From contig NZ_JAGGLS010000001.1 in the NCBI RefSeq assembly GCF_017874535.1, forward strand, positions 186,001-250,000: a stretch of DNA of 64,000 nucleotides, given 5' to 3'. The DNA comes from Anaerococcus nagyae (lineage in GTDB: Bacteria; Bacillota; Clostridia; Tissierellales; Peptoniphilaceae). The position numbers and the translations under genes are program-made. The notes under the pieces were generated by a model that saw nothing but the letters and a program-made list of their open reading frames with translations, was not told the origin of the DNA and did not search any database. Numbering within the stretch: the first letter of the stretch is position 1; every line of letters begins with the position of its first letter. This document shows positions 9,510 through 48,560 of the stretch, one piece after another.

Positions 9510-10721
9510 CTATAAGGAAATTTGAAATATTAATAATATAGCTAGTAGGTATATAGTGCTAAGGTAAGTAATTATTTTCTTATTATATTTGCTAAAATAT
9601 ATACTAGATAATAGCATAGGAGCATAAAATAAGCTAATTCCTAAATAGTATATGTTCTTAAGTATTATAGAAAATCCAAGTAAAAATATAGTATTGATAG
9701 TAAAATTTATTATAGAATAAGATTTTACCAAATCTTTGTATTCTACATCTATAAATAATCCTTGTCGATCTTTTCTTAAAAGATTTTTAAAATTTTCACA
9801 TACTATAGCATTCACATTAGTTAAGTAGCTATAAAGTATAAAAATATTTATAAAATATTTGTCTAAGTAAAACTTATTAATTACTAATAATACATAGGCT
9901 CCTATAGCAAGTCCAATTATTGCCCTAGAACTAGTTCTTCTAAGACTCAGTATAGCTTGTTGGCTTATAGCATTTTTATAACTTAGCTTATTAAAATAAC
10001 TATAAGATCTGCCCTTATTAGCAAGATTTTGCTTATTAATAACTTGCATTTTAGAATAATCCTTATTCCTAGCTGCTGATTGGATAGTATTATAGGTCCT
10101 AAACTCTTTAAATAACTGGTCCTTATCAAGGTTTTCTAGTCTAAACTTATGAGCTAATATTATAAGCTCAGTAAGTATTATAAAAAATACTACTATGATA
10201 AGTTTATAATTAAAATATAATAAGACTAGCATTAAAATCAAGGAAAATCTAAATATATTAGCTAATTTTTTATCTTTCAAATTATAGAAAAATAATCCCA
10301 GTATATCTTGATAGACCAGTGTTAGAAATATAAGTGCTATATCAGCATTTCCAAGCTTTAATAGTATATTTAATGGATAAAAAACTATTATGTAAATACC
10401 AGCCTTTTTGAGAAACTTTAATCTTAATAAATCAACTATTTCTTCATCATTTAAATACAGTAGATGAGCATGGTCAATTCTTATTAGACTTTTCCTAGAC
10501 AAGAAACCATAAAGTGCTATTAATAGAGCCAAGCTAGTTGTTAATAGACTCTTATCAACTAATGGAATATAATAAATTATGTATTTATCGGCGTAAAATA
10601 TTGCCATAGCAAATATTGCTGGAATCAGGATCAAGATTAAGGGATAGTTTTTTATAAGTTTTAAAAATTGACGTTTTTTTATTCTTATATCATTTGCAAT
10701 TAATACTTTATTCGCAAACAT
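9510..10721 (-). CDS. ABC transporter membrane protein (ABC-2-like), exporter
   Basis: The start at 10721 (MFANKVLIAND) is preferred because a GGGAAG ribosome site precedes it and it lies 1-2 bases past the ATPase stop. An upstream in-frame ATG at 10790 would overlap the ATPase gene by 68 bases. This gives 403 residues with about ten hydrophobic segments and a central cytoplasmic stretch at about residues 205-250 (KFRLENLDKDQLFKEF...). No substrate family can be assigned. Together with the adjacent ATPase it forms a two-gene exporter-like system, followed by a 37-aa peptide gene. Confidence 0.75.
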   Translation of the reverse strand: MFANKVLIANDIRIKKRQFLKLIKNYPLILILIPAIFAMAIFYADKYIIYYIPLVDKSLLTTSLALLIALYGFLSRKSLIRIDHAHLLYLNDEEIVDLLRLKFLKKAGIYIIVFYPLNILLKLGNADIALIFLTLVYQDILGLFFYNLKDKKLANIFRFSLILMLVLLYFNYKLIIVVFFIILTELIILAHKFRLENLDKDQLFKEFRTYNTIQSAARNKDYSKMQVINKQNLANKGRSYSYFNKLSYKNAISQQAILSLRRTSSRAIIGLAIGAYVLLVINKFYLDKYFINIFILYSYLTNVNAIVCENFKNLLRKDRQGLFIDVEYKDLVKSYSIINFTINTIFLLGFSIILKNIYYLGISLFYAPMLLSSIYFSKYNKKIITYLSTIYLLAILLIFQISL

Positions 10722-10722
10722 A

Positions 10723-11397
10723 TCACTTCCCAAAATATTTCCTATATAAGTCGTAAGTATTATTATCCTTAGCAGACTTATCAGAAGCATAGACTACTTG
10801 TCCTTCCTTAATAAAAACGAAATTATCACATATCTCATCTATCAAACTCAATTGATGGGAGGATATAAGTATAGCACAGCCTTTATTTCTTAAGCTTATT
10901 AGTTCAGATTTAAATACATCTAATTGACTTGGGTCAAGCCCTGTGAAGGGTTCATCCGCTATCAAAAGTTCCTTATTTCTTAGTAAGGCTAAGATGATCA
11001 TCATTTTTTGTAGTGTTCCTTTAGAAAGTTCACTCGGGAAATGATTAAGATATCTTCTAACTTCAAATAAATCTATATAATAATCTATTAACTCTTTGGA
11101 CTCATTGATAGCCGATATAAATTCTATATGCTCGCCAAAAGTTAACTCTTCGTAGTAAACAGGACTATCTGTTATATAGGATATGTGAATTGTTTTTAGA
11201 TCTTGATTATTTATCTTTATACTTCCATCATAATTTCTATAAAAACTAGTCAAACATTTTATCAAACTAGTCTTTCCTGCTCCGTTATTCCCTATAAAAC
11301 CTGTAATTTTCCCAGCTATTATATCAAAACTTATATTATTAAGGATATCACTATTTCCTAATTTTAGATTTAAATTTTTTATTTCAATATTATTCAT
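10723..11397 (-). CDS. ABC transporter ATP-binding protein
   Basis: 224 residues with a complete nucleotide-binding domain: Walker A GNNGAGKT (36-43), signature LSKGTLQKM, Walker B LLIADEPF, and the H-loop 'ISSHQ'. The SKG-type signature and short length are typical of ABC-2-type export systems. It is followed immediately by the permease gene. The substrate is unknown; the nearby small cationic peptide is a speculative candidate. Confidence 0.9.
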   Translation of the reverse strand: MNNIEIKNLNLKLGNSDILNNISFDIIAGKITGFIGNNGAGKTSLIKCLTSFYRNYDGSIKINNQDLKTIHISYITDSPVYYEELTFGEHIEFISAINESKELIDYYIDLFEVRRYLNHFPSELSKGTLQKMMIILALLRNKELLIADEPFTGLDPSQLDVFKSELISLRNKGCAILISSHQLSLIDEICDNFVFIKEGQVVYASDKSAKDNNTYDLYRKYFGK

Positions 11398-12130: not shown

Positions 12131-12175
12131 GAAAGTTAGCTAATCCATCCATAACATAAAGGAAGTGCTATTATA

Positions 12176-12300
12176 TACTTCTCTCATCCAGACTATACTG
12201 TCGGTATTGGAATTTCACCAATTCAACCAAGATGGCTCGCAGACTATAACTGCCGGTTTAGGAATTTCACCTTACCCCGAATTAAGCTCGTATGACTAGA
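12176..12300 (-). ncRNA. FMN (RFN) riboswitch
   Basis: On the minus strand the conserved RFN blocks appear in order: TTCGGGGTAAGGTGAAATTC, CCGGCAGTTATAGTCTGCGA, GGTGAAATTCC, and CCGACAGTATAGTCTGGATG ending in AGAGAAG. It lies directly upstream of ribU and its terminator. FMN binding should favour termination and lower riboflavin uptake. Confidence 0.96.
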
Positions 12301-12389: not shown

Positions 12390-12989
12390 TTATTTTAGGT
12401 CAAATTTAACTAAGGAAGTCATATTTTTCCCTGCTTCCCAACTTGCTGAAACTTCTTTTCCATTATTTAAAGTATCAGATATAGCAAGTTCGCCACCCTT
12501 ACCTACAACATACACTGTATAATCATAATCAGTCTTTGAACTAAAGTTTGCTCCTAGATTATCTCCATCTTTGCTAATATCCCAGTTTTTGATATCTGGT
12601 ATGTCTATATCTTTCTTTTCTCCCTTATTTTCATTTTCTAAAATAAGTTCATTATCTGAAACATTTTTTATTTTTATCTTATCATTTTCTTTAAGACTTA
12701 TCTCTTTGCTAGTATAGCTATTACCCTCTGAGTCTTTTGCCACTATCCTAAAAGTGCCGCCATTAGCAAAAAGACTATTTGGTATTACATAGTTGCTATT
12801 CTCATCCTTGCAAAGGAGGATTTGGCTATCATCTGCAATTCCTAAAGCTTCAAAATCTTGCTTACTATCATTTCCTATGTGCACCGCTTCTAGCTTATTG
12901 TTATTTCTATTTATAAAATAAACTGCTAATCCTATAACTACTACAGCTATCAAAACAAATAAGGCTGTGTTCTTTTTATTTCTCTTCAT
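12390..12989 (-). CDS. Membrane-anchored extracellular accessory protein of the bacteriocin locus
   Basis: 199 residues. There is one N-terminal membrane helix (about 9-27, 'TALFVLIAVVVIGLAVYFI') after a basic start, then a soluble, mostly beta-rich extracellular domain of about 170 residues. No family is recognised. Its ATG overlaps the TGA of the ABC ATPase gene (ATGA), so translation is coupled to the exporter. Position and topology suggest an immunity or export helper role for the lactococcin-972-like system. That role is inferred from context only. Confidence 0.75.
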   Translation of the reverse strand: MKRNKKNTALFVLIAVVVIGLAVYFINRNNNKLEAVHIGNDSKQDFEALGIADDSQILLCKDENSNYVIPNSLFANGGTFRIVAKDSEGNSYTSKEISLKENDKIKIKNVSDNELILENENKGEKKDIDIPDIKNWDISKDGDNLGANFSSKTDYDYTVYVVGKGGELAISDTLNNGKEVSASWEAGKNMTSLVKFDLK

Positions 12990-13645
12990 TTTTTAATCTC
13001 CAAACATTTATCAATTATTTCATAGCTAGTCTTGCTTATATTTGCAAAATCTTTATCATGGCTTACTATTACTATAGTTTTGCCCTTAGCATTTTCCTCT
13101 AGAAAAAGCTGCATCAAAATATCTTTATTTATAGTATCTAATGACCCTGTAGGCTCATCTGCCAGGAGCAGGTCATAAGGCTTTAATAAAACTCTTGCCA
13201 TAGCTACCCTTTGTTGCTCCCCACCTGATAATTCATATACTTTATTATTTAGCTTATCAGCTATGCCTAGCTTATCTAAAGTAATATTTATCTTTTCTTT
13301 ATCATTTTTAAACTCACTATATTTTAGGGCTATGTCAATGTTTTCTTTAACAGTCATATTATCTACAAGGGCAAAGTTTTGAAACAGATAAGCTATCCTT
13401 TCTCTCCTTAAGATCATTGACTTATTTTTATCCTTATAAGGATCAGAATAACCAAAGCTTCTTATACTACCACTATCATAGTCTTCCAGGGTTCCTAGGA
13501 TATTTAGCAAGGTAGACTTACCACTACCACTTTTTCCAAAAATAGTTATAAAGTCTTTAGAATATATATCAAGATTTACATCCTTAAGCACCTCGTGGTC
13601 ACCATAAGTTTTGTTTATATTTTTCAAGCTTATTTGGGGTTTCAT
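12986..13645 (-). CDS. ABC ATPase of the lactococcin-972-type bacteriocin export group
   Basis: 219 residues. Walker A GKSGSGKST, signature LSGGEQQRVAMAR, Walker B LLLADEPTGSLD and the H-loop VSHD are all intact, in the LolD/MacB-like style used by lactococcin-972 exporters. It starts one base inside the permease stop (TAATG overlap) and overlaps the next gene by 4 bases. It therefore belongs to a bacteriocin-permease-ATPase-accessory operon. It energises export of, or immunity to, the bacteriocin encoded at 15864-16241. Confidence 0.92.
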   Translation of the reverse strand: MKPQISLKNINKTYGDHEVLKDVNLDIYSKDFITIFGKSGSGKSTLLNILGTLEDYDSGSIRSFGYSDPYKDKNKSMILRRERIAYLFQNFALVDNMTVKENIDIALKYSEFKNDKEKINITLDKLGIADKLNNKVYELSGGEQQRVAMARVLLKPYDLLLADEPTGSLDTINKDILMQLFLEENAKGKTIVIVSHDKDFANISKTSYEIIDKCLEIKK

Positions 13646-15789
13646 TACTTATCCTCCTTTAAACTTTTGATTATATTAGCTTCTTTTCTTAACATTACTA
13701 TTTCAGCAAGAGTAAATATTATAAATAAGAGGAGGCTAATCCCAAAGCCTATTAAAACCATCCTGTTAGTCCAACCTTCTCTTGGAGCATAAAAGCCTAA
13801 TCCTCCAAAAACTACACTCAGTCTGAGTACTAGATAGTAGATAGCTATAGATAGTAGATATGACAAAGCTATAGATCTTATCTTAGCCTTGTGGATATCC
13901 TTAAAAGGATAACCAAATAAGCTCTTTACTGCAGCTTCATCTCCATAGTTTAAATAATAATTTTTATGATCTGTATTTACTATAAATCCATAAATACATA
14001 GTAGGATAATTGAAGCTATAATATAAATTATAGTTTCATTTTTGTATCTTTGAACCTGGTATTCTACATAGTCATAGGCTGTCTCTATCCAAAGAACATA
14101 CTTACTAGCTGGCGTAGTGGATATTAGTTCCTTTAAATCTGCTAGACTCTCCTCACCCTTATCTAGATAAGGGTGTAGCTGCCCATTATCTAATCCATTA
14201 GACAGTAAGCTTTCTTCTGACCTAAGTCCGTCCTCATTTATTAAAATGTAAACATAATTGTCCGAATAAGGCTGATCGATCCTAGCACTGGAATCTAGGC
14301 ATGGTAGCTTTTGGCCGCTTTTTATTTTTACAATATTCCGAACTAAATCATCACTATTTTTAGATTCAGATATTTGTTTTTCTTTGATATCATTCAAATC
14401 TTGATCAGTAAGGTTAATATCTTCTGGAACTAATATAACCCATTCATTTTCCTTTGCTTTAGTATCTAAAGCATGTCCCTTATCATCTAATATATCAAAC
14501 TTTGTAAGGTAATTGTGGTTAATGAAGGCAAATTTTCCATTATTTAACCTATGTTCTCCAAATAAGTCATCATCTATATTTAACCCTTCGACGTCTTGGT
14601 ATGGGTTTAGGAATAATACTGCCCCTCTATCTACCAAGAGTCTAGCCAATTCTTCTGTAGGTTTTGCAACTAATTCTTTATCTTTATCTCCATCAATTAC
14701 ATATTGCCAAGGCGCCCCAGTGGCTATGTTGGCGTATGATTTTGCATCGTCCCAATCATTTAAATATTCATTTACATCTTTATAGTCTTTTAAAGAAAAG
14801 ACAGTGATAGCTAGTAAGTAGGCCAAGGATCCTGCAAATATTATTTTAAATATTGATAAAAACTTAGCAGAAACCTTTCTCTCTCCCTTTAATACACTTA
14901 ATATATCTTCATAATTTGTTTTATATAATAATAGGATAAATTCTAATAAAAATACTACTAAAGCAAATAATAAAATAAATATATACATAGGATTCATAGC
15001 TATCAAAAATCCACCAATACTATCTGGATTAACTAAGTTATAGAGCAAGGCGGAATCAATTATTAAAGCTATTAATATAGGCATAGCTATAAGATTAACA
15101 GACTTGTTTGCGGCAATCTTCTTATCATCATATCCAAATAGGAGTGATATGGACAGCTCCTTAACTAGGCTCCTATTATAAATAAGCAAAGCAAATATAG
15201 TAGCAAAAATACTAATCAAATTAATGACAAGCATTAAGAAAAACTCTTTCATAGTCATTTCAGAAGCACTCATATAATCAGGTGTCTGTACAATATCTGC
15301 ATAAGCTTTTAAATCATCTATAAATGATTCGACATTATTTTGATCTCCACTTATAGCATAGTCTCCAGATATATTATCTATGTCGATATCTTCATATTTT
15401 TTTATATCTATATTGTTTTTAGTTAAAAGATTATTAGAACTTATGCTATGAAATTTATTAGAAGTATTGCTATCTTCATTTATCTTTAAGTCCTTATGGG
15501 ACTTATTAAAACTACTCGGATCACTTAAAAATAAATAAGCATCTACATCTATATTTTCTTTTCTATCAACTCTAGACTTCTTGACAAACTTTATTAAATT
15601 GATATTATTATCTGATGCAGCTTTAGCAATGTCATCTCTAATATCCTCATCATTATAGTTGACAAGATTTACAAACTTATCAAAATCAGGAAATTTACCT
15701 ATAGCCTGATTGTTATCTATGTAATAGAAATAAGTTAGGGAACTTAGTATTAATGTTATTGTCGTGAGTATCTTGAGTATTTTTTTCAT
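13645..15789 (-). CDS. Bacteriocin-associated integral membrane protein (lactococcin-972-type permease)
   Basis: About 714 residues from the start at 15789 (MKKILKIL, weak AAGG site upstream). A longer in-frame start at 15831 would run into the upstream hairpin. Membrane helix 1 is followed by a large extracellular domain (about 30-180), then a block of four helices (about 190-310), a second large extracellular domain, and a final helix block near the C-terminus. This MacB/FtsX-like duplicated layout is typical of the large permease that accompanies lactococcin-972 bacteriocins. The neighbours confirm it: bacteriocin precursor upstream, dedicated ATPase downstream. Confidence 0.9.
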   Translation of the reverse strand: MKKILKILTTITLILSSLTYFYYIDNNQAIGKFPDFDKFVNLVNYNDEDIRDDIAKAASDNNINLIKFVKKSRVDRKENIDVDAYLFLSDPSSFNKSHKDLKINEDSNTSNKFHSISSNNLLTKNNIDIKKYEDIDIDNISGDYAISGDQNNVESFIDDLKAYADIVQTPDYMSASEMTMKEFFLMLVINLISIFATIFALLIYNRSLVKELSISLLFGYDDKKIAANKSVNLIAMPILIALIIDSALLYNLVNPDSIGGFLIAMNPMYIFILLFALVVFLLEFILLLYKTNYEDILSVLKGERKVSAKFLSIFKIIFAGSLAYLLAITVFSLKDYKDVNEYLNDWDDAKSYANIATGAPWQYVIDGDKDKELVAKPTEELARLLVDRGAVLFLNPYQDVEGLNIDDDLFGEHRLNNGKFAFINHNYLTKFDILDDKGHALDTKAKENEWVILVPEDINLTDQDLNDIKEKQISESKNSDDLVRNIVKIKSGQKLPCLDSSARIDQPYSDNYVYILINEDGLRSEESLLSNGLDNGQLHPYLDKGEESLADLKELISTTPASKYVLWIETAYDYVEYQVQRYKNETIIYIIASIILLCIYGFIVNTDHKNYYLNYGDEAAVKSLFGYPFKDIHKAKIRSIALSYLLSIAIYYLVLRLSVVFGGLGFYAPREGWTNRMVLIGFGISLLLFIIFTLAEIVMLRKEANIIKSLKEDK

Positions 15790-15809
15790 ATATTTATTTA
15801 CCTTAATAG

Positions 15810-15857
15810 AAATCCAGCTAGAAAAAAACAAAAGTATTTTATCTAGCTGGATTTAAC
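15810..15857 (-). other. Strong hairpin between bacteriocin and exporter genes
   Basis: Perfect 12-bp arms AAATCCAGCTAG/CTAGCTGGATTT around a roughly 21-base U-rich loop, just after the bacteriocin stop. No U run follows the 3' arm. It looks like an mRNA-stability or processing hairpin, or a leaky attenuator, rather than a standard terminator. Confidence 0.7.
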
Positions 15858-15863
15858 AGTATC

Positions 15864-16241
15864 TTATTCTACATTTGCATATGCTTCATTTCCAAAAGCT
15901 GCACTTTCCCAGCTAGCATAGGCTGTATTGCTAGGAGCAACTCTACCAGATCTTGCTATCTTTCCGCCTGCGCCCTTTACACTAGTATTATGATATTTAC
16001 TTGCGTGATAAAATCGTGACCATACCTGAGAAGTATTAACCCCGTGTCTCCACTTTCCACCTAGCCAATCCTTAACTCCACTGTCGTAGGTTTTTGATGA
16101 ATAAGTGCTAACACTCTCTGATTCTACTGTAACCACATCATTGTTTAATGAATCAAATCTATACTCTTGATCTGCAAAAGAAACTGGCGTACTAAATAAT
16201 ATTAGTCCTGCTACCGCTAATGCTTTTATTTTGTTTTCCAT
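15864..16241 (-). CDS. Lactococcin-972 family bacteriocin precursor
   Basis: 125 residues from the internal ATG at 16241 (MENKIKAL), chosen because GGTAGG sits 7 bases upstream. A longer in-frame ATG at 16256 lacks a ribosome site. There is a Sec signal peptide with likely cleavage after SFA (about residue 23). The C-terminal half has the family pattern: GGKWRHGV, Ser and aromatic residues at VWSRFYHASKYH, then SVKGAGG and an Ala/Ser-rich end. Lactococcin 972 is a Sec-exported bacteriocin that blocks septum formation by binding lipid II. The same target is inferred here. The permease and ATPase follow directly, and regulators lie upstream. Confidence 0.92.
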   Translation of the reverse strand: MENKIKALAVAGLILFSTPVSFADQEYRFDSLNNDVVTVESESVSTYSSKTYDSGVKDWLGGKWRHGVNTSQVWSRFYHASKYHNTSVKGAGGKIARSGRVAPSNTAYASWESAAFGNEAYANVE

Positions 16242-16274
16242 AATTAAACCTACCAATTATATTTTTAGAATAGA

Positions 16275-16305
16275 AAGTGTACACTTATTCTATGTCTTTA
16301 TTATA
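16275..16305 (-). promoter_or_regulatory. Bacteriocin promoter -10 and palindromic operator-like site
   Basis: -10 box TATAAT (16300-16305 read on the minus strand) with no good -35, followed by the 12-base perfect palindrome AAGTGTACACTT (16275-16286) flanked by AGAAT/ATTCT. Position is about +7 to +18 of the expected transcript. It is a candidate binding site for the XRE-type regulator encoded upstream. Confidence 0.55.
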
Positions 16306-16461
16306 AAATATTTTAAAATATTATTTAATAGCCTATGTGCATGTTCAAAATACCTGTACAAATACTGATAAATAAGCAAAAACCAATCTTTATTAGTTCA
16401 TACTGAAAAAGAATTTGAAATTTTTAGTACTAACTTAACAAAAACTGGCTTTGAAGCATGG

Positions 16462-17358
16462 TTACTTGTCTCGATAAATTAATTTATTAAATTTTTCTTT
16501 TAATTCTGGCCTATTTGTTAGTAAACATAAGTCCATAGATTTATTTAAATATGATAAAAACTCTGGGTTTTTCTCTTTAAAAAGAATATCTCCTCTCTGA
16601 TAATATGAATTAATCAAGTTAATAGTGTCATTATTTCTAATAGATGAATCGATAGATTTTTTATTCCACTCTAAAGCTTTTTCAACATCACCATCATTGC
16701 TATATGACCTACTAATATTATAAGATATTTTCGGATATAAATTATTATTTTCACCTATATTATTTAATATAAATAGTAGTATGTCGTAGCTAAATCCAAT
16801 GTCTCCATTCTCCCTATAATAAGGGACCATAGCAGATAATATCCTGTATTCGAAATTTGTATAGTTATAATTTTTATACTTTTTAATCTTAAAGTCTTTA
16901 TGAGATATGACCATAGCCTCATTTAGACCTTTTATAAAACTTTGGCTACTTCTTTTCGGATTATAAATTATAGATTGGTAAAATTTAAGATACTGACTAT
17001 ATTTTTTTTGATAAAAATTAGGTAGAATATCTTTATTTACCTTCTCAAATTCTCCTAATGTTTCCTCTACTTTTTCATAGTTAAATTCATCCATATAATA
17101 ATCTAAGTCAGTTATGTAATCATCTATATACGACCATATAGATCCCTGAAAATAATTGAATATAGTGTCAAATTCAAGACCCAGCTCTTCTAAAATAACC
17201 AATAAAGAGCTAAGCTTTATATCTACCTTTCCGCTTTCAAGCCTCCTTATTGTATCTACTGATAAGTCAGCAGCAAAGGCCAAATCCTCTTGGGTTAGTT
17301 TCTTTTCTTTTCTTATATTCCTTATTTCATTACCTATATAATCTAAATTATAGTCCAT
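16462..17358 (-). CDS. XRE-family regulator with TPR-like C-terminal domain (Rgg/PlcR style)
   Basis: 298 residues. The N-terminal helix-turn-helix spans about 5-61 ('IRNIRKEKKLTQEDLAFAAD', then LSVDTIRRLESGK). A long helical region follows with TPR-like repeats such as 'EKALEWNKKSIDSSIRNND'. This layout is shared with peptide-sensing RRNPP regulators, but no signal peptide gene is evident, so quorum sensing is only a possibility. It sits between the bacteriocin gene and an orphan response-regulator gene on the same strand, 12 bases after the latter, with an AAGGAG site. Confidence 0.85.
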   Translation of the reverse strand: MDYNLDYIGNEIRNIRKEKKLTQEDLAFAADLSVDTIRRLESGKVDIKLSSLLVILEELGLEFDTIFNYFQGSIWSYIDDYITDLDYYMDEFNYEKVEETLGEFEKVNKDILPNFYQKKYSQYLKFYQSIIYNPKRSSQSFIKGLNEAMVISHKDFKIKKYKNYNYTNFEYRILSAMVPYYRENGDIGFSYDILLFILNNIGENNNLYPKISYNISRSYSNDGDVEKALEWNKKSIDSSIRNNDTINLINSYYQRGDILFKEKNPEFLSYLNKSMDLCLLTNRPELKEKFNKLIYRDK

Positions 17359-17370
17359 TATTAACTCCTT

Positions 17371-18027
17371 TTAAGGTGTACAAGAATCAAGTACCCACCT
17401 ATAACCCTTACGGTTTACAGTTTCAATTGGATTTAAGTCAGCTTTTTTAAATTCTAGTCTTATTTTTCTAATATGCTCCCTAACTGATCTTTCTGTCGTT
17501 TTAAGTCCTTTCTTTTCCATAGCCTCTACTATTTCATCCTTGGATAAGGTTTTACCCATATTAGATATTAGTACTGAGCAGATGCTTATTTCAAACTTGG
17601 TTAGGTCTAGGATATCATTACCTATTCTAAAGATACCGTTATCTTCTTCCATAGTACAAAATCCTAATCTTACAATATTTGTATCGTTGATTTCTTCTAC
17701 CTTATCAAAGATATTGTTGATAAATTCCTCACGAGTATTAGAGTGGATGACAAAGTCCTTATCATCTAATTCTTGCTCGTAAGGATTATCTGTATTTCTC
17801 TCTGTTAGATATATTACTGGAACGGATGTAGTTTGTTTTATGTATTGAATTACTTGAAGACACTTATTATAGGTCATATCTACCAAGATTAGATCGTAGC
17901 TATCTAAATCTAAGTCAATCAAGTCTTCCATTTGTTCGAATTTATGTATAACTACTTCATGTTTATCAAAATGTGAGTTTAAGAGAGAAGATACACCGTT
18001 TTCATTTTCTACTGATGCTATTTTCAT
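17371..18027 (-). CDS. Orphan response-regulator-like protein with OmpR-type winged helix
   Basis: 218 residues. The N-terminal REC-like domain keeps an Asp at about position 50 (DLILVD) but lacks the usual paired acidic residues near the start (ASVENENGV) and the conserved Lys-Pro near the end. It is therefore probably phosphorylation-independent. The C-terminal winged-helix DNA-binding domain (about 130-213) carries 'RSVREHIRKIRLEFKKADLN' and 'VNRKGYRWV'. No histidine kinase is nearby. It has a clear promoter (TTTACA-17-TATAAT) and is followed by the XRE-TPR gene. Control of the bacteriocin operon is inferred from proximity. Confidence 0.85.
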   Translation of the reverse strand: MKIASVENENGVSSLLNSHFDKHEVVIHKFEQMEDLIDLDLDSYDLILVDMTYNKCLQVIQYIKQTTSVPVIYLTERNTDNPYEQELDDKDFVIHSNTREEFINNIFDKVEEINDTNIVRLGFCTMEEDNGIFRIGNDILDLTKFEISICSVLISNMGKTLSKDEIVEAMEKKGLKTTERSVREHIRKIRLEFKKADLNPIETVNRKGYRWVLDSCTP

Positions 18028-18336: not shown

Positions 18337-18693
18337 ATGAAAGGCAATTATTCCATGACTATAATAGAACACAAATATTTTCAACCAATTACTATTTTTA
18401 CAGCAATGATAATATCGCTTTTTTCTTTTGAAGGTATTAAAATTTTTAGCATTGCTGTTTTAATTGTTACTTTTAGCTCAGCTACTACAATGGCTCTTAA
18501 TATCTATAAAGATAGAGCTAAAAATTCTCTTATAGAGTTTTTATATGCATTATCTATCTTTCTTATAATGAAATATTTACCTCAATATATAACTTATTTT
18601 TATAGTGGTATATTGGTTATACTTATTTACCTAATATATATACTATACATAAACCCTAAAATAATGAATAGAGCTTTAATTTACAAAGTTTAA
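18337..18693 (+). CDS. Small multi-pass membrane protein, unknown
   Basis: 118 residues with about four hydrophobic segments (about 17-30, 32-52, 63-80, 83-105) and short basic loops. I do not recognise a family. It starts at ATG with only a weak AGG site; an internal ATG at residue 7 is an alternative. It is closed by the perfect hairpin at 18734-18769. It is divergent from the bacteriocin regulators, so an immunity or accessory role is possible but unsupported by sequence similarity. Confidence 0.6.
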   Translation: MKGNYSMTIIEHKYFQPITIFTAMIISLFSFEGIKIFSIAVLIVTFSSATTMALNIYKDRAKNSLIEFLYALSIFLIMKYLPQYITYFYSGILVILIYLIYILYINPKIMNRALIYKV

Positions 18694-28451: not shown

Positions 28452-28482
28452 ACCTCCTTCTAGCACAATGCTAATAAGAGGT
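28452..28482 (-). promoter_or_regulatory. Ribosome-site-sequestering hairpin before thiT
   Basis: On the minus strand ACCTC pairs with GAGGT, which is the thiT Shine-Dalgarno, extended by inner stem TAGCA/TGCTA. It is a likely translational output device of the adjacent TPP aptamer. Confidence 0.7.
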
Positions 28483-28484
28483 CA

Positions 28485-28560
28485 GACACTTTCCCCCGCA
28501 AGCATTACCTTGAACTGGTTTAAGGGTATATTCTCAGCCATAAGGCACCCCTAGTGCATA
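28485..28560 (-). ncRNA. TPP riboswitch upstream of thiT
   Basis: Minus strand shows AGGGGTGCC, GGCTGAGA, ACCAGTTCAAGGTAATGC and GCGGGGGAAAGT, the conserved THI-box segments in order. TPP binding is expected to lower ThiT translation through the downstream hairpin. Confidence 0.93.
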
Positions 28561-28599
28561 TGTATATTATAACTTTTTGATAAATTTTTGCAAATCGGA

Positions 28600-40378: not shown

Positions 40379-40425
40379 AAAAAAAAAGCTGATACTATCT
40401 GCACTCGCAGAAGTCATCAGCTTTT
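40379..40425 (-). terminator. Attenuator terminator of the fluoride riboswitch
   Basis: Arms AAAAGCTGAT and ATCAGCTTTT (40416-40425 and 40384-40393) with a 9-U run on the minus strand, ending about 10 bases before the antiporter ribosome site GAGGAG. The 3' part of the aptamer lies inside the 5' arm, as expected for a switch. Confidence 0.88.
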
Positions 40426-40468
40426 AGCGGTTTTGAATAATTTCATGGAAGAACTTCATTTCCATTTC
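40395..40468 (-). ncRNA. Fluoride riboswitch (crcB motif)
   Basis: Minus strand: GGAAATGAAGTTCTTCC (40447-40463) matches the GGxxATGxxGTTCxxCC hairpin, then AAACCGCT (40426-40433) and AGCTGATGACTTCTGC (40407-40422). These are the three conserved crcB-motif blocks in the right order and spacing. It precedes a terminator and an antiporter gene. Confidence 0.9.
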
Positions 40469-40565
40469 TATAATAAATTTTACTAATATCTCTATATTTT
40501 ACAAGTATTAATAGACAATATTTTGTTAATCTATTATAATTATACATATTAGAAAAGAGGTTATA

Positions 40566-48360: not shown

Positions 48361-48390
48361 TAAAAAATACCTGCAAAAATATGCAAGTAC
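48361..48390 (-). terminator. TPP-riboswitch terminator before thiC
   Basis: Stem TACTTGCA/TGCAGGTA (48382-48389 and 48368-48375) with a U-rich run. It lies between aptamer and thiC and is the likely transcriptional output. Confidence 0.87.
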
Positions 48391-48399
48391 TACATCTTT

Positions 48400-48482
48400 T
48401 TGCTCCCTACGCTAGTATTAACTAACAGGTTCTAAGGGTCAGGTTTTACCTTCTCAACTTTTATAGTAAAGTCCCCCTGCGA
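48400..48482 (-). ncRNA. TPP riboswitch upstream of thiC
   Basis: Minus strand shows GCAGGGGGACTTT, GTTGAGAAGGT, TGACCCTTAGAACCTGTTAG and the closing TACTAGCGTAGGGAGCA. These are the TPP aptamer elements in order, upstream of a terminator and thiC. Confidence 0.93.
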
Positions 48483-48560
48483 TTTATTTAATTTAACCTA
48501 CAATCATCCTAACACTATGTATTAGCTTTGTCAAATTGCTATTTTTAAAATTAAGATAAA

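Follow-up and report, generated by a model that had tools for sequence, protein, structure and literature searches.

The insertion site between a core response-regulator gene and an FMN-riboswitch/RibU gene of Anaerococcus nagyae harbours a lactococcin-972-type cassette of an XRE regulator, a toxin, a permease, an ATPase and a 199-aa protein, p199, whose last ~65 residues are established by sequence comparison as a homologue of the cassette's own mature bacteriocin. We put at roughly 60% the probability that p199 derives from the toxin and, tethered in the membrane, acts with the ABC pair as an immunity protein. The cassette ORFs and the flanking response-regulator-like gene all lie on the minus strand of the window, the 64,000-nt stretch of contig NZ_JAGGLS010000001.1 analysed here (Table 1), and the ATPase and p199 genes share a 4-base ATGA overlap. 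With the precursor passing PF09683 and the ABC genes and p199 in place, the lactococcin-972-type locus claimed in a first-pass annotation of this DNA was borne out; its 199-aa protein belongs to the locus, but the toxin-like domain had been overlooked.

Table 1 Features of the cassette and its flanks (window coordinates)
Feature	Position	Strand	Basis
p199 (199-aa ORF): anchor, beta domain (Ig-like, weak matches), C-terminal lactococcin-972-like domain	12390-12989	(-)	
ABC ATPase, 219 aa	12986-13645	(-)	TIGR03608 241.8 bits (just under cut-off), ABC_tran 111 bits
7TM-type ABC permease (DUF1430/TIGR01654-like), 714 aa	13645-15789	(-)	TIGR01654 and DUF1430, both below cut-off; hydropathy
Lactococcin-972-type precursor, 125 aa	15864-16241	(-)	PF09683 37.8 bits, cut-off 22
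XRE regulator, TPR/RNPP-like towards its C-terminus; opens the cassette	16462-17358	(-)	HTH_3 43 bits, cut-off 23
OmpR-type response-regulator-like gene, core flank outside the cassette	17371-18027	(-)	Pfam scores, orthologue survey
Lactococcin-972-like domain within p199 (residues ~130-199)	12390-12602	(-)	hhalign, toxin HMM, VIA-align
Predicted transmembrane anchor of p199, residues 8-28	12906-12968	(-)	AF2 helix 8-28; hydropathy 8-26
XRE-toxin intergenic region	16242-16461	(-)	Sequence; alignment of 4 cassettes
Hairpin between toxin and permease genes	15810-15854	(-)	RNA folding, shuffles
FMN riboswitch 5′ of the RibU gene	12172-12288	(-)	Rfam RF00050 98.7 bits

The family search that the first-pass annotation had proposed for the precursor returned PF09683 (Lactococcin_972) at 37.8 bits against a cut-off of 22, but TIGR01653, the narrower lactococcin 972 subfamily, at only 13.4 against 32.1 bits, placing the precursor in PF09683 and outside the narrower subfamily. 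Both motifs described earlier, GGKWRHG and YHASKYH, were found in its translation. The N-terminus, inspected visually and by hydropathy, contains K4, K6, a hydrophobic stretch at residues 5-23 and SFA ahead of D24, and reads by eye as a Sec-type signal followed by a propeptide and then the mature part, the start of which we took as YDSG. The toxin would leave the cell via Sec and, if it works like lactococcin 972, target a cell-wall precursor on the surface of other cells.

The permease comprises 714 aa from the first ATG, or 728 aa if an upstream TTG is used. TIGR01654 aligned weakly but nearly end to end with the longer reading (residues 15-668; model positions 1-642 of 681) at 48.5 bits, below its cut-off of 189.35, and DUF1430 reached 18.6 bits against 28.2, so the protein resembles this family along nearly its whole length without being filed as a member. 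In its hydropathy profile, a large non-membrane stretch leading into a cluster of hydrophobic segments occurs twice, which agrees, as to layout only, with its earlier description as duplicated. For the ATPase, TIGR03608 was the best among 203 models matched and narrowly missed its cut-off of 254.85 bits; by position, the protein is the equivalent of the TIGR03608 ATPase. Both ABC proteins thus matched the TIGRFAM models that had been anticipated for them, although under the curated cut-offs.

In the excerpts available to us, the lactococcin 972 operon (lcn972, orf2-orf3; plasmid pBL1) and the streptococcin operons (scbABC) likewise combine a toxin of PF09683 type with genes of the permease/ATPase type, to which immunity or transport is ascribed; plasmids bearing the lcn972 cluster lift an MIC of 12.5 AU/mL to 800-1600 AU/mL (PMC4055356), while scbABC has a ComR-type regulator upstream and strains with scbBC only exist (PMC11796350). 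The Mediterrocin cluster of Mediterraneibacter gnavus, as far as its excerpt goes, similarly contains a lactococcin-972-type toxin, a DUF1430 7TM protein, an ATP-binding protein and a transcription regulator, together with further genes of no assigned role, the product of one of them likely secreted (PMC12345188). By contrast, a toxin-like membrane-anchored gene is not described in the excerpts on lcn972 and scbABC, whereas the fourth gene here encodes a toxin-homologous domain and overlaps the ATPase gene. The same A. nagyae genome also carries, on contig C10, a classic three-gene lactococcin-972 system (97-aa toxin, 679-aa permease and ATPase), and a 14-kb stretch around it yielded no p199 match at E <= 0.05.

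The relationship between p199 and the toxin was only suggested by an earlier hhalign comparison of small alignments (P 8e-4, probability 24%), and a later profile-profile alignment of the p199 domain with the toxin gave P 1.8e-7 and a score of 39.6, compared with 15.6 for the best of 300 column shuffles. When each protein was shuffled separately, none of 5000 shuffles did as well for six of the seven p199 proteins and 2 of 5000 did for G022. Searched against 1026 ORFs together with the seven p199 relatives, an HMM built from 10 mature toxins of the clade matched lactococcin-972 toxins and p199 relatives exclusively up to E 5. The relatives obtained E-values of 9.4e-11, 1.1e-5, 5.9e-4, 8e-4 (the p199 of the window, over residues 158-186), 8.7e-4, 0.051 (G520) and 0.64 (G022), the last two being weak matches when taken alone; five outscored the top-scoring 97-aa toxin found in the genus (8.9e-4) and two the 137-aa toxin of G015:C2 (5.7e-5). 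A tblastn search with the G022 toxin against a 13-kb Miniphocaeibacter locus aligned 49 aa at 49% identity (E 1.5e-9), at the C-terminus of the p199 relative. In the reverse direction, a profile of p199 relatives only, searched against 391 genomes of the class, gave 25 matches, 15 of which were N-terminal or mid-protein and taken as chance; six were confined to residues 134-192, and all six were PF09683 hits. PF09683 itself matched neither the whole G112 relative nor C-terminal fragments of five p199 relatives, even with E-values allowed up to 10, and a PDB sequence search with p199 returned no lactococcin 972. As the homology comes from clade-specific profiles and one pairwise match, we call the domain a homologue and not a Pfam member.

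Behind a Lys-rich N-terminus, p199 has one hydrophobic segment (residues 8-26 by hydropathy), consistent with the single-helix extracellular protein described at first, and the AF2 model places a helix at residues 8-28. Confidence in the models is moderate, with pLDDT averaging 78 for the whole protein and 68 for the domain alone. For the full model, VIA-align ranked 9hkj best (Z 6.7, 2.3 Å, 66 aligned), tied with the designed Ig-like 8bl3 and 7skp, and Foldseek placed 9hkj only at rank 46 (E 0.13); for the C-terminal domain alone, Foldseek gave 2lgn at rank 4 (E 0.075) and 9hkj at rank 8, and neither was among the best 50 rows of VIA. Among the best matches of a search of the open PMC literature on formosin, nothing concerned 9hkj. 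Matches tied with or behind designed Ig-like folds are what an unrelated Ig-like surface protein would give had it merely converged with the toxin on a small β-sandwich, and Ig-like sandwiches do dominate the PDB matches, with designed Ig proteins ranking at or above lactococcin 972. This reading is very improbable in view of the shuffle-controlled sequence evidence with no unrelated ORF matched among the 1026, the pair with 49% identity, and the six C-terminal-only profile matches, all to lactococcin-972 genes.

All seven p199 relatives retain the core residues W, G, S, W and E of the toxin, and none of them has kept RHG or the first His, which do not vary across the 10 toxins compared. The loss of these polar residues is expected of any change of function as well. 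It bears on the idea that p199 is itself a second weapon, one that stays anchored at the surface and uses its lactococcin-972 domain to inhibit cells touching the producer: the anchor would indeed display the toxin-like domain, but with this motif lost in every relative and one relative retained next to the ABC genes of a genome that yielded no toxin, we regard such a role as improbable. Of 15 pairs compared, 14 show stronger conservation in the C-terminal domain than in the middle one.

A p199 relative was present at 7 of the 10 loci of the toxin clade of the window and at none of 11 other lactococcin-972 loci, with clade membership set at >=96 bits (at least 96) on the clade HMM, a threshold chosen after viewing the data, and the intermediate G046 toxin (42 bits) placed among the non-clade loci. 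These 21 loci derive from 22 PF09683 matches, the second G018 match (L039) being omitted, as its contig ends inside the permease. In five of the six p199-bearing Anaerococcus/G520 cassettes, the p199 gene has the 4-base overlap with the ATPase gene; p199 is associated with the ABC genes. At the clade loci of G018 and G272, with the ABC pair intact, and of G587, with a broken permease, no p199 relative was found, so p199 is not indispensable. In G112, a permease-ATPase-lipoprotein segment is 85% DNA-identical to the complete G113 cassette; no toxin was found at the locus, nor any PF09683 match at E <= 0.01 in this 98% complete genome, although the same model finds the G113 toxin. The gene overlap and the two clade loci that have intact ABC genes and show no p199 relative would suit a different role, in which p199 is a sensor or loading subunit of the transporter in toxin release or maturation, its toxin-like domain docking on the permease at the toxin's spot and the ABC pair alone giving immunity. 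We think this unlikely, because by eye the toxin bears a Sec-type signal and would not need a dedicated exporter, the argument also made in the excerpt of PMC12345188, and because in G112, where no toxin for release was found, the ABC genes and a p199 relative are retained.

In a search of the order, p199 matched in 8 of 249 genomes, including short C-terminal remnants in G092 and G099, with no adjoining cassette in the stretch read, and a match inside a 5055-aa frame in G010. This search missed the G113 relative, later found beside its own toxin, so all counts of p199 given here are minimum values. From 398 genomes drawn across the phylum, only the genome of the window and a single mid-protein match, weak at E 9e-4, were returned, and a plasmid search with p199 (P0001) or the G112 relative gave no match. 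Comparison of G000 and G015 did not support co-evolution of toxin and p199 as a recombining pair: the high-identity tract (DNA 82-100%, 250-column windows) spans the 3′ end of the response-regulator gene, the XRE, toxin and permease genes and the start of the ATPase gene, and identity drops to 71-75%, as in the flanks, for the end of the ATPase gene and for p199.

The gene downstream of the insertion site, which is core like the one upstream, is putatively named RibU from its FMN riboswitch and weak matches to ECF S-components. On the other side, the response-regulator-like protein passes Trans_reg_C (46 bits, cut-off 26.2) and stays below the cut-off of Response_reg (22.7 against 30.2), in keeping with its being called degenerate. 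Its orthologue occurs in 31 of 31 Anaerococcus genomes, and among 15 loci read it directly adjoins RibU in 11 and is separated from it by the cassette in four; the gene is therefore core in the genus, the cassette begins at the XRE gene, and the response regulator was ruled out as a cassette member. A dedicated control pair of response regulator and XRE would be in keeping with the 12 bases between them, which would permit read-through, but is hardly probable given a response regulator in all 31 genomes with only four cassettes at this site and 11 cassette-free loci. Close XRE orthologues (97, 67 and 44%) were confined to the four genomes with the cassette at the site, the next full-length match among the 31 genus genomes being 32%, and in L037 (with a split kinase) and L089, two further cassettes whose toxins belong to this clade, genes for a response regulator and a histidine kinase take its place upstream; the XRE gene is thus a swappable regulator of the cassette at the RR-RibU site. 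Of the two regulators first proposed, then, only XRE belongs to the cassette, and co-occurrence was seen for p199 at seven of the ten clade loci and for XRE at this site, but not for the response regulator.

XRE passes HTH_3, and its C-terminal part scored 23.5 bits on RNPP_C, short of the cut-off of 26.5. The XRE-toxin gap contains only short TTG-start frames without a clear RBS, and near XRE the window had no convincing signal-peptide gene (both from a scan of one direction, >=12 aa, i.e. at least 12). A perfect palindrome in this gap, AAGTGTACACTT (16275-16286), is a candidate operator, and TATAAT on the minus strand (plus-strand 16300-16305) is presumably a -10-like element. The strong hairpin between the toxin and permease genes has a z-score of -5.1 in the window, and a hairpin is present there in 8 of 9 loci folded; that of G520 is weak (z -2.0, 10/200 shuffles as good), and G113 has no single strong hairpin there. 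It is probably a partial terminator, giving more toxin mRNA than ABC mRNA.

Taking the toxin-homologous domain, the ABC link and G112 together, an immunity role for the 199-aa protein, which had been offered only as a possibility, is the best explanation. We infer the binding mode, the division of labour with the ABC pair and the role of the hairpin as follows. The single helix would hold p199 in the producer's membrane, the Ig-like beta domain would raise the C-terminal domain off the membrane, and the toxin-homologous domain would be displayed outside the cell, where p199 most likely neutralises incoming toxin beside the ABC pair. It may pair with the toxin as a stand-in for a second subunit, or bind the target where the toxin does and leave that target unblocked; the permease and ATPase would then remove or release the toxin, and the hairpin 3′ of the toxin gene probably sets toxin mRNA above immunity mRNA. 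At about even odds, p199 is more specifically a pseudo-toxin that arose by duplication of a lactococcin-972 domain; the copy would have shed its conserved polar motif, become attached to an Ig-like stalk with a membrane anchor, and come to confer immunity on the surface of the producer by pairing or competing with the true toxin.

An immunity protein beside an ABC transporter recalls LanI/LanFEG, which, in the excerpt available, protect the producer alone or together (PMC8538875), immunity being the proposed function in the case of p199. Unlike the lipoprotein LanI, p199 has a helix anchor, and only its relatives in G112 and G113 look, by eye, like lipoproteins. LanI is not known to derive from its bacteriocin. 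The open PMC literature yielded no membrane-anchored immunity protein for lactococcin 972 and, in titles and abstract starts among the best matches, no toxin-derived immunity protein of this family.

If true, the pseudo-toxin reading would place a toxin-derived immunity protein within an unmodified bacteriocin system. A toxin relative tethered beside ABC genes, and kept in one genome in which no toxin turned up, would allow a direct test of its role and offers a handle on which toxin residues act. A toxin-like domain on an anchored protein may also serve as a search rule for the immunity genes of other small protein bacteriocins.

All the genes named in the first-pass annotation were present on the minus strand, where it had placed them, including an XRE regulator, a toxin precursor, a permease, an ATPase and p199, a 199-aa membrane-anchored protein; the permease and ATPase genes overlapped by 1 base and the ATPase and p199 genes by 4 bases. 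The precursor passed the Pfam Lactococcin_972 model (37.8 bits, cut-off 22), as had been proposed, and fell below the narrower TIGR01653 (13.4 bits, cut-off 32.1). The ATPase and permease resembled the families of lactococcin-972 systems, as anticipated, but both scored under the curated TIGRFAM cut-offs, the ATPase being closest to TIGR03608 (241.8 bits versus 254.85) and the permease aligning along almost its full length with TIGR01654 (48.5 bits versus 189.35). No family model matched p199 above its cut-off.

The response-regulator-like gene RR, which had been counted as part of the system, had an orthologue in all 31 Anaerococcus genomes (at least 60% identity; two pieces in G002), and the five-gene cassette (XRE-toxin-permease-ATPase-p199) stood between RR and RibU, an FMN-riboswitch gene, in four of the 15 RR loci read from these genomes: those of the window, G015 (A. 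provencensis), G026 and G022 (Anaerococcus sp. Marseille-P3625). Because the order MetK-MreB-PGM-RR-RibU, names given provisionally and in part by eye, was common to all 15 loci, with RibU directly after RR in 11, RR is core flank. Close XRE orthologues (97, 67 and 44% identity) were confined to cassette genomes, the next full-length match among the 31 reaching 32%; searches of the 31 detected p199 in 4 genomes, the permease in 5 and PF09683 in 7. Elsewhere, cassettes with toxins of the window's clade, namely the second locus of G015 (L037, on G015:C6) and that of G520 (L089), carried response-regulator and histidine-kinase genes upstream instead of XRE. L037 is decayed, with a stop in the toxin propeptide, the permease in two frames and, in its upstream two-component genes, a split histidine kinase. 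The classic lactococcin-972 loci of G024 and G026 had, by eye, a divergent XRE-type gene, which in G026 matched the XRE query protein P0002 at E 5e-5. According to excerpts of PMC11796350, scbABC has a ComR-type regulator upstream.

DNA identity between the window and G015 was 71–84% over most of RR, 92–100% over the RR 3′ end and XRE, 84–97% over the toxin and permease genes, 82% in the first part of the ATPase, 71–75% from the end of the ATPase to that of p199, and 67–78% in RibU. The high identity from the RR 3′ end through the permease points to recent exchange of the cassette front; p199 shows a divergence close to background, from which we infer that the cassette would be old at the RR–RibU site. 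The membrane gene between TsaE and RibU was unmatched in the 14 further RR loci read, and G005 (L045) carried other ABC genes on the same side of RibU; RR-RibU-TsaE may be a stretch that has taken insertions repeatedly.

Coordinates of features in the window and in other stretches
Feature	Position	Remark
ABC ATPase and membrane-protein gene	window 9510-11397	between TsaE and RibU
Perfect palindrome AAGTGTACACTT	window 16275-16286	ahead of the toxin gene, directly following a TATAAT-like box
118-aa membrane-protein ORF	window 18337-18693	between RR and PGM, opposite strand; negative by family search and by tblastn against the remaining RR loci that were read
Two TPP riboswitches and one fluoride riboswitch	window 48387-48488, 28474-28562, 40401-40472	Rfam gathering matches
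Second complete classic lactococcin-972 system of the window's genome	L092:4186-7197 (G000:C10:10000-24000)	97-aa toxin, 679-aa permease, ATPase; flanking genes resemble pgsA and recA; search of the stretch gave no p199 relative
Isolated p199 C-terminal remnant, G092	L060:5042-5167	no toxin or ABC cassette in the stretch read
Isolated p199 C-terminal remnant, G099	L061:1747-1878	no toxin or ABC cassette in the stretch read

In G015 the palindrome was identical; in G026 and G022, which have different XRE proteins, another sequence took its place. Between toxin and permease, a strong hairpin formed in all eight loci folded, their sequences having diverged, with none single and strong in a ninth (G113); its z was −5.1 to −7.5 in six of seven scored loci and −2.0 in G520, and it would act as a partial terminator.

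By sequence comparison, the C-terminal domain of p199 is a relative of the lactococcin-972 toxin. In alignment, W136...V161.G.GG....S171..........A182-S-W184-E185 of p199 parallels W...V.G.GG....S...A-S-W-E of the toxin, without gaps, by eye, over the 25 positions from V to E. Comparison of seven p199 C-termini with ten mature toxins by hhalign gave a probability of 93.8 (P 1.8e-7, score 39.6), the highest score among 300 column-shuffled controls being 15.6. A toxin HMM scanned against 1026 locus-derived ORFs (60 aa or longer) plus the seven p199 relatives matched, up to E 5, lactococcin-972 toxins and p199 relatives and nothing else, with E-values for the latter of 9.4e-11 (G112, Miniphocaeibacter massiliensis), 1.1e-5 (G015 second), 5.9e-4 (G015), 8e-4 (window), 8.7e-4 (G026), 0.051 (G520) and 0.64 (G022), and, for toxins outside the clade, of 5.7e-5 (G015:C2) and 8.9e-4 to 0.047 (97-aa toxins). 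Shuffles of the last 70 residues equalled the real score in 0 of 5000 for six p199 proteins and 2 of 5000 for G022, and the p199 middle domain scored at most 0.8 bits. In reverse, a profile from six p199 relatives alone gave 25 matches in 391 class genomes (E ≤ 0.01), comprising four full-length p199, six restricted to residues 134–192 and 15 elsewhere in the profile; all six restricted matches coincided with PF09683 matches, of which the same genomes hold ten. The G022 toxin also matched, by tblastn against the 13-kb M. massiliensis locus, the C-terminus of a lipoprotein related to p199 (49% over 49 aa, E 1.5e-9). Counting against homology, the domain neither matched Pfam PF09683 nor was detected in a PDB sequence search. 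Remnants of the domain lie isolated in two other genera, and G099 has a separate, different lactococcin-972 locus on another contig.

For the whole-p199 model (pLDDT 78), the best VIA row was 9hkj, a lactococcin-972 family bacteriocin (Z 6.7, 2.3 Å, 66 residues aligned), level with two designed Ig proteins; for the domain alone (pLDDT 68), lactococcin 972 (2lgn) took Foldseek rank 4 behind designed Ig proteins, and neither 2lgn nor 9hkj was among the best 50 VIA rows. These predicted structures agree with toxin homology and are not decisive. In the joint alignment, W14, G41, S49, W62 and E63 were invariant in all ten toxins and all seven p199 relatives, which also kept the toxin-invariant V39 (6/7), A60 (5/7) and S61 (6/7). 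R-H-G following the first W was substituted in all seven, and the first His was changed in seven and the second in six, G112 retaining it. In 14 of 15 pairs, conservation was higher in the C-terminal than in the middle domain; the C-terminal domain looks like one that has kept its fold and lost the putative active surface.

Among 22 PF09683 matches (genus, class draw and order), 21 loci were compared, L039 being left out as its contig ends in the permease. A p199 relative stood at seven of ten toxin-clade loci (window, G015 twice, G026, G022, G520 and G113); none was seen at those of G018, G272 and G587 (permease broken), nor at the 11 other lactococcin-972 loci, the second system of the window's genome included and that of G099 counted negative despite a marginal N-terminal match (E 0.047). 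This association has a Fisher P of 0.001, with related loci not independent, the clade boundary set afterwards and the G046 toxin intermediate. Two G018 contig ends (L039 and L038) carry a nearly identical toxin and permease start, which suggests that the assembly broke at a cassette that is tandem or repeated. The G113 locus, from the genus of G112, comprises toxin, permease, ATPase and a lipoprotein relative of p199, and shares 85% DNA identity with G112 over a tract that starts shortly ahead of the permease and runs to the end of the lipoprotein gene; G112 has no toxin at the locus and no PF09683 match genome-wide, though the same model detects the G113 toxin. The excerpts of PMC11796350 report scbBC without toxin in 157 of 571 pneumococcal genomes, a likeness in that both retain the other two genes.

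Homology to the toxin and linkage to the ABC pair bear out the earlier proposal that the extra membrane-anchored gene belongs to the system. The bacteriocin system is of a known kind, and p199 is a genuine extension of it: a tethered protein with a toxin domain, associated with the ABC pair. Our best estimate, with a probability of about 0.6, is that p199 serves immunity, in that it would capture the toxin or shield the toxin's target and so protect the producer.
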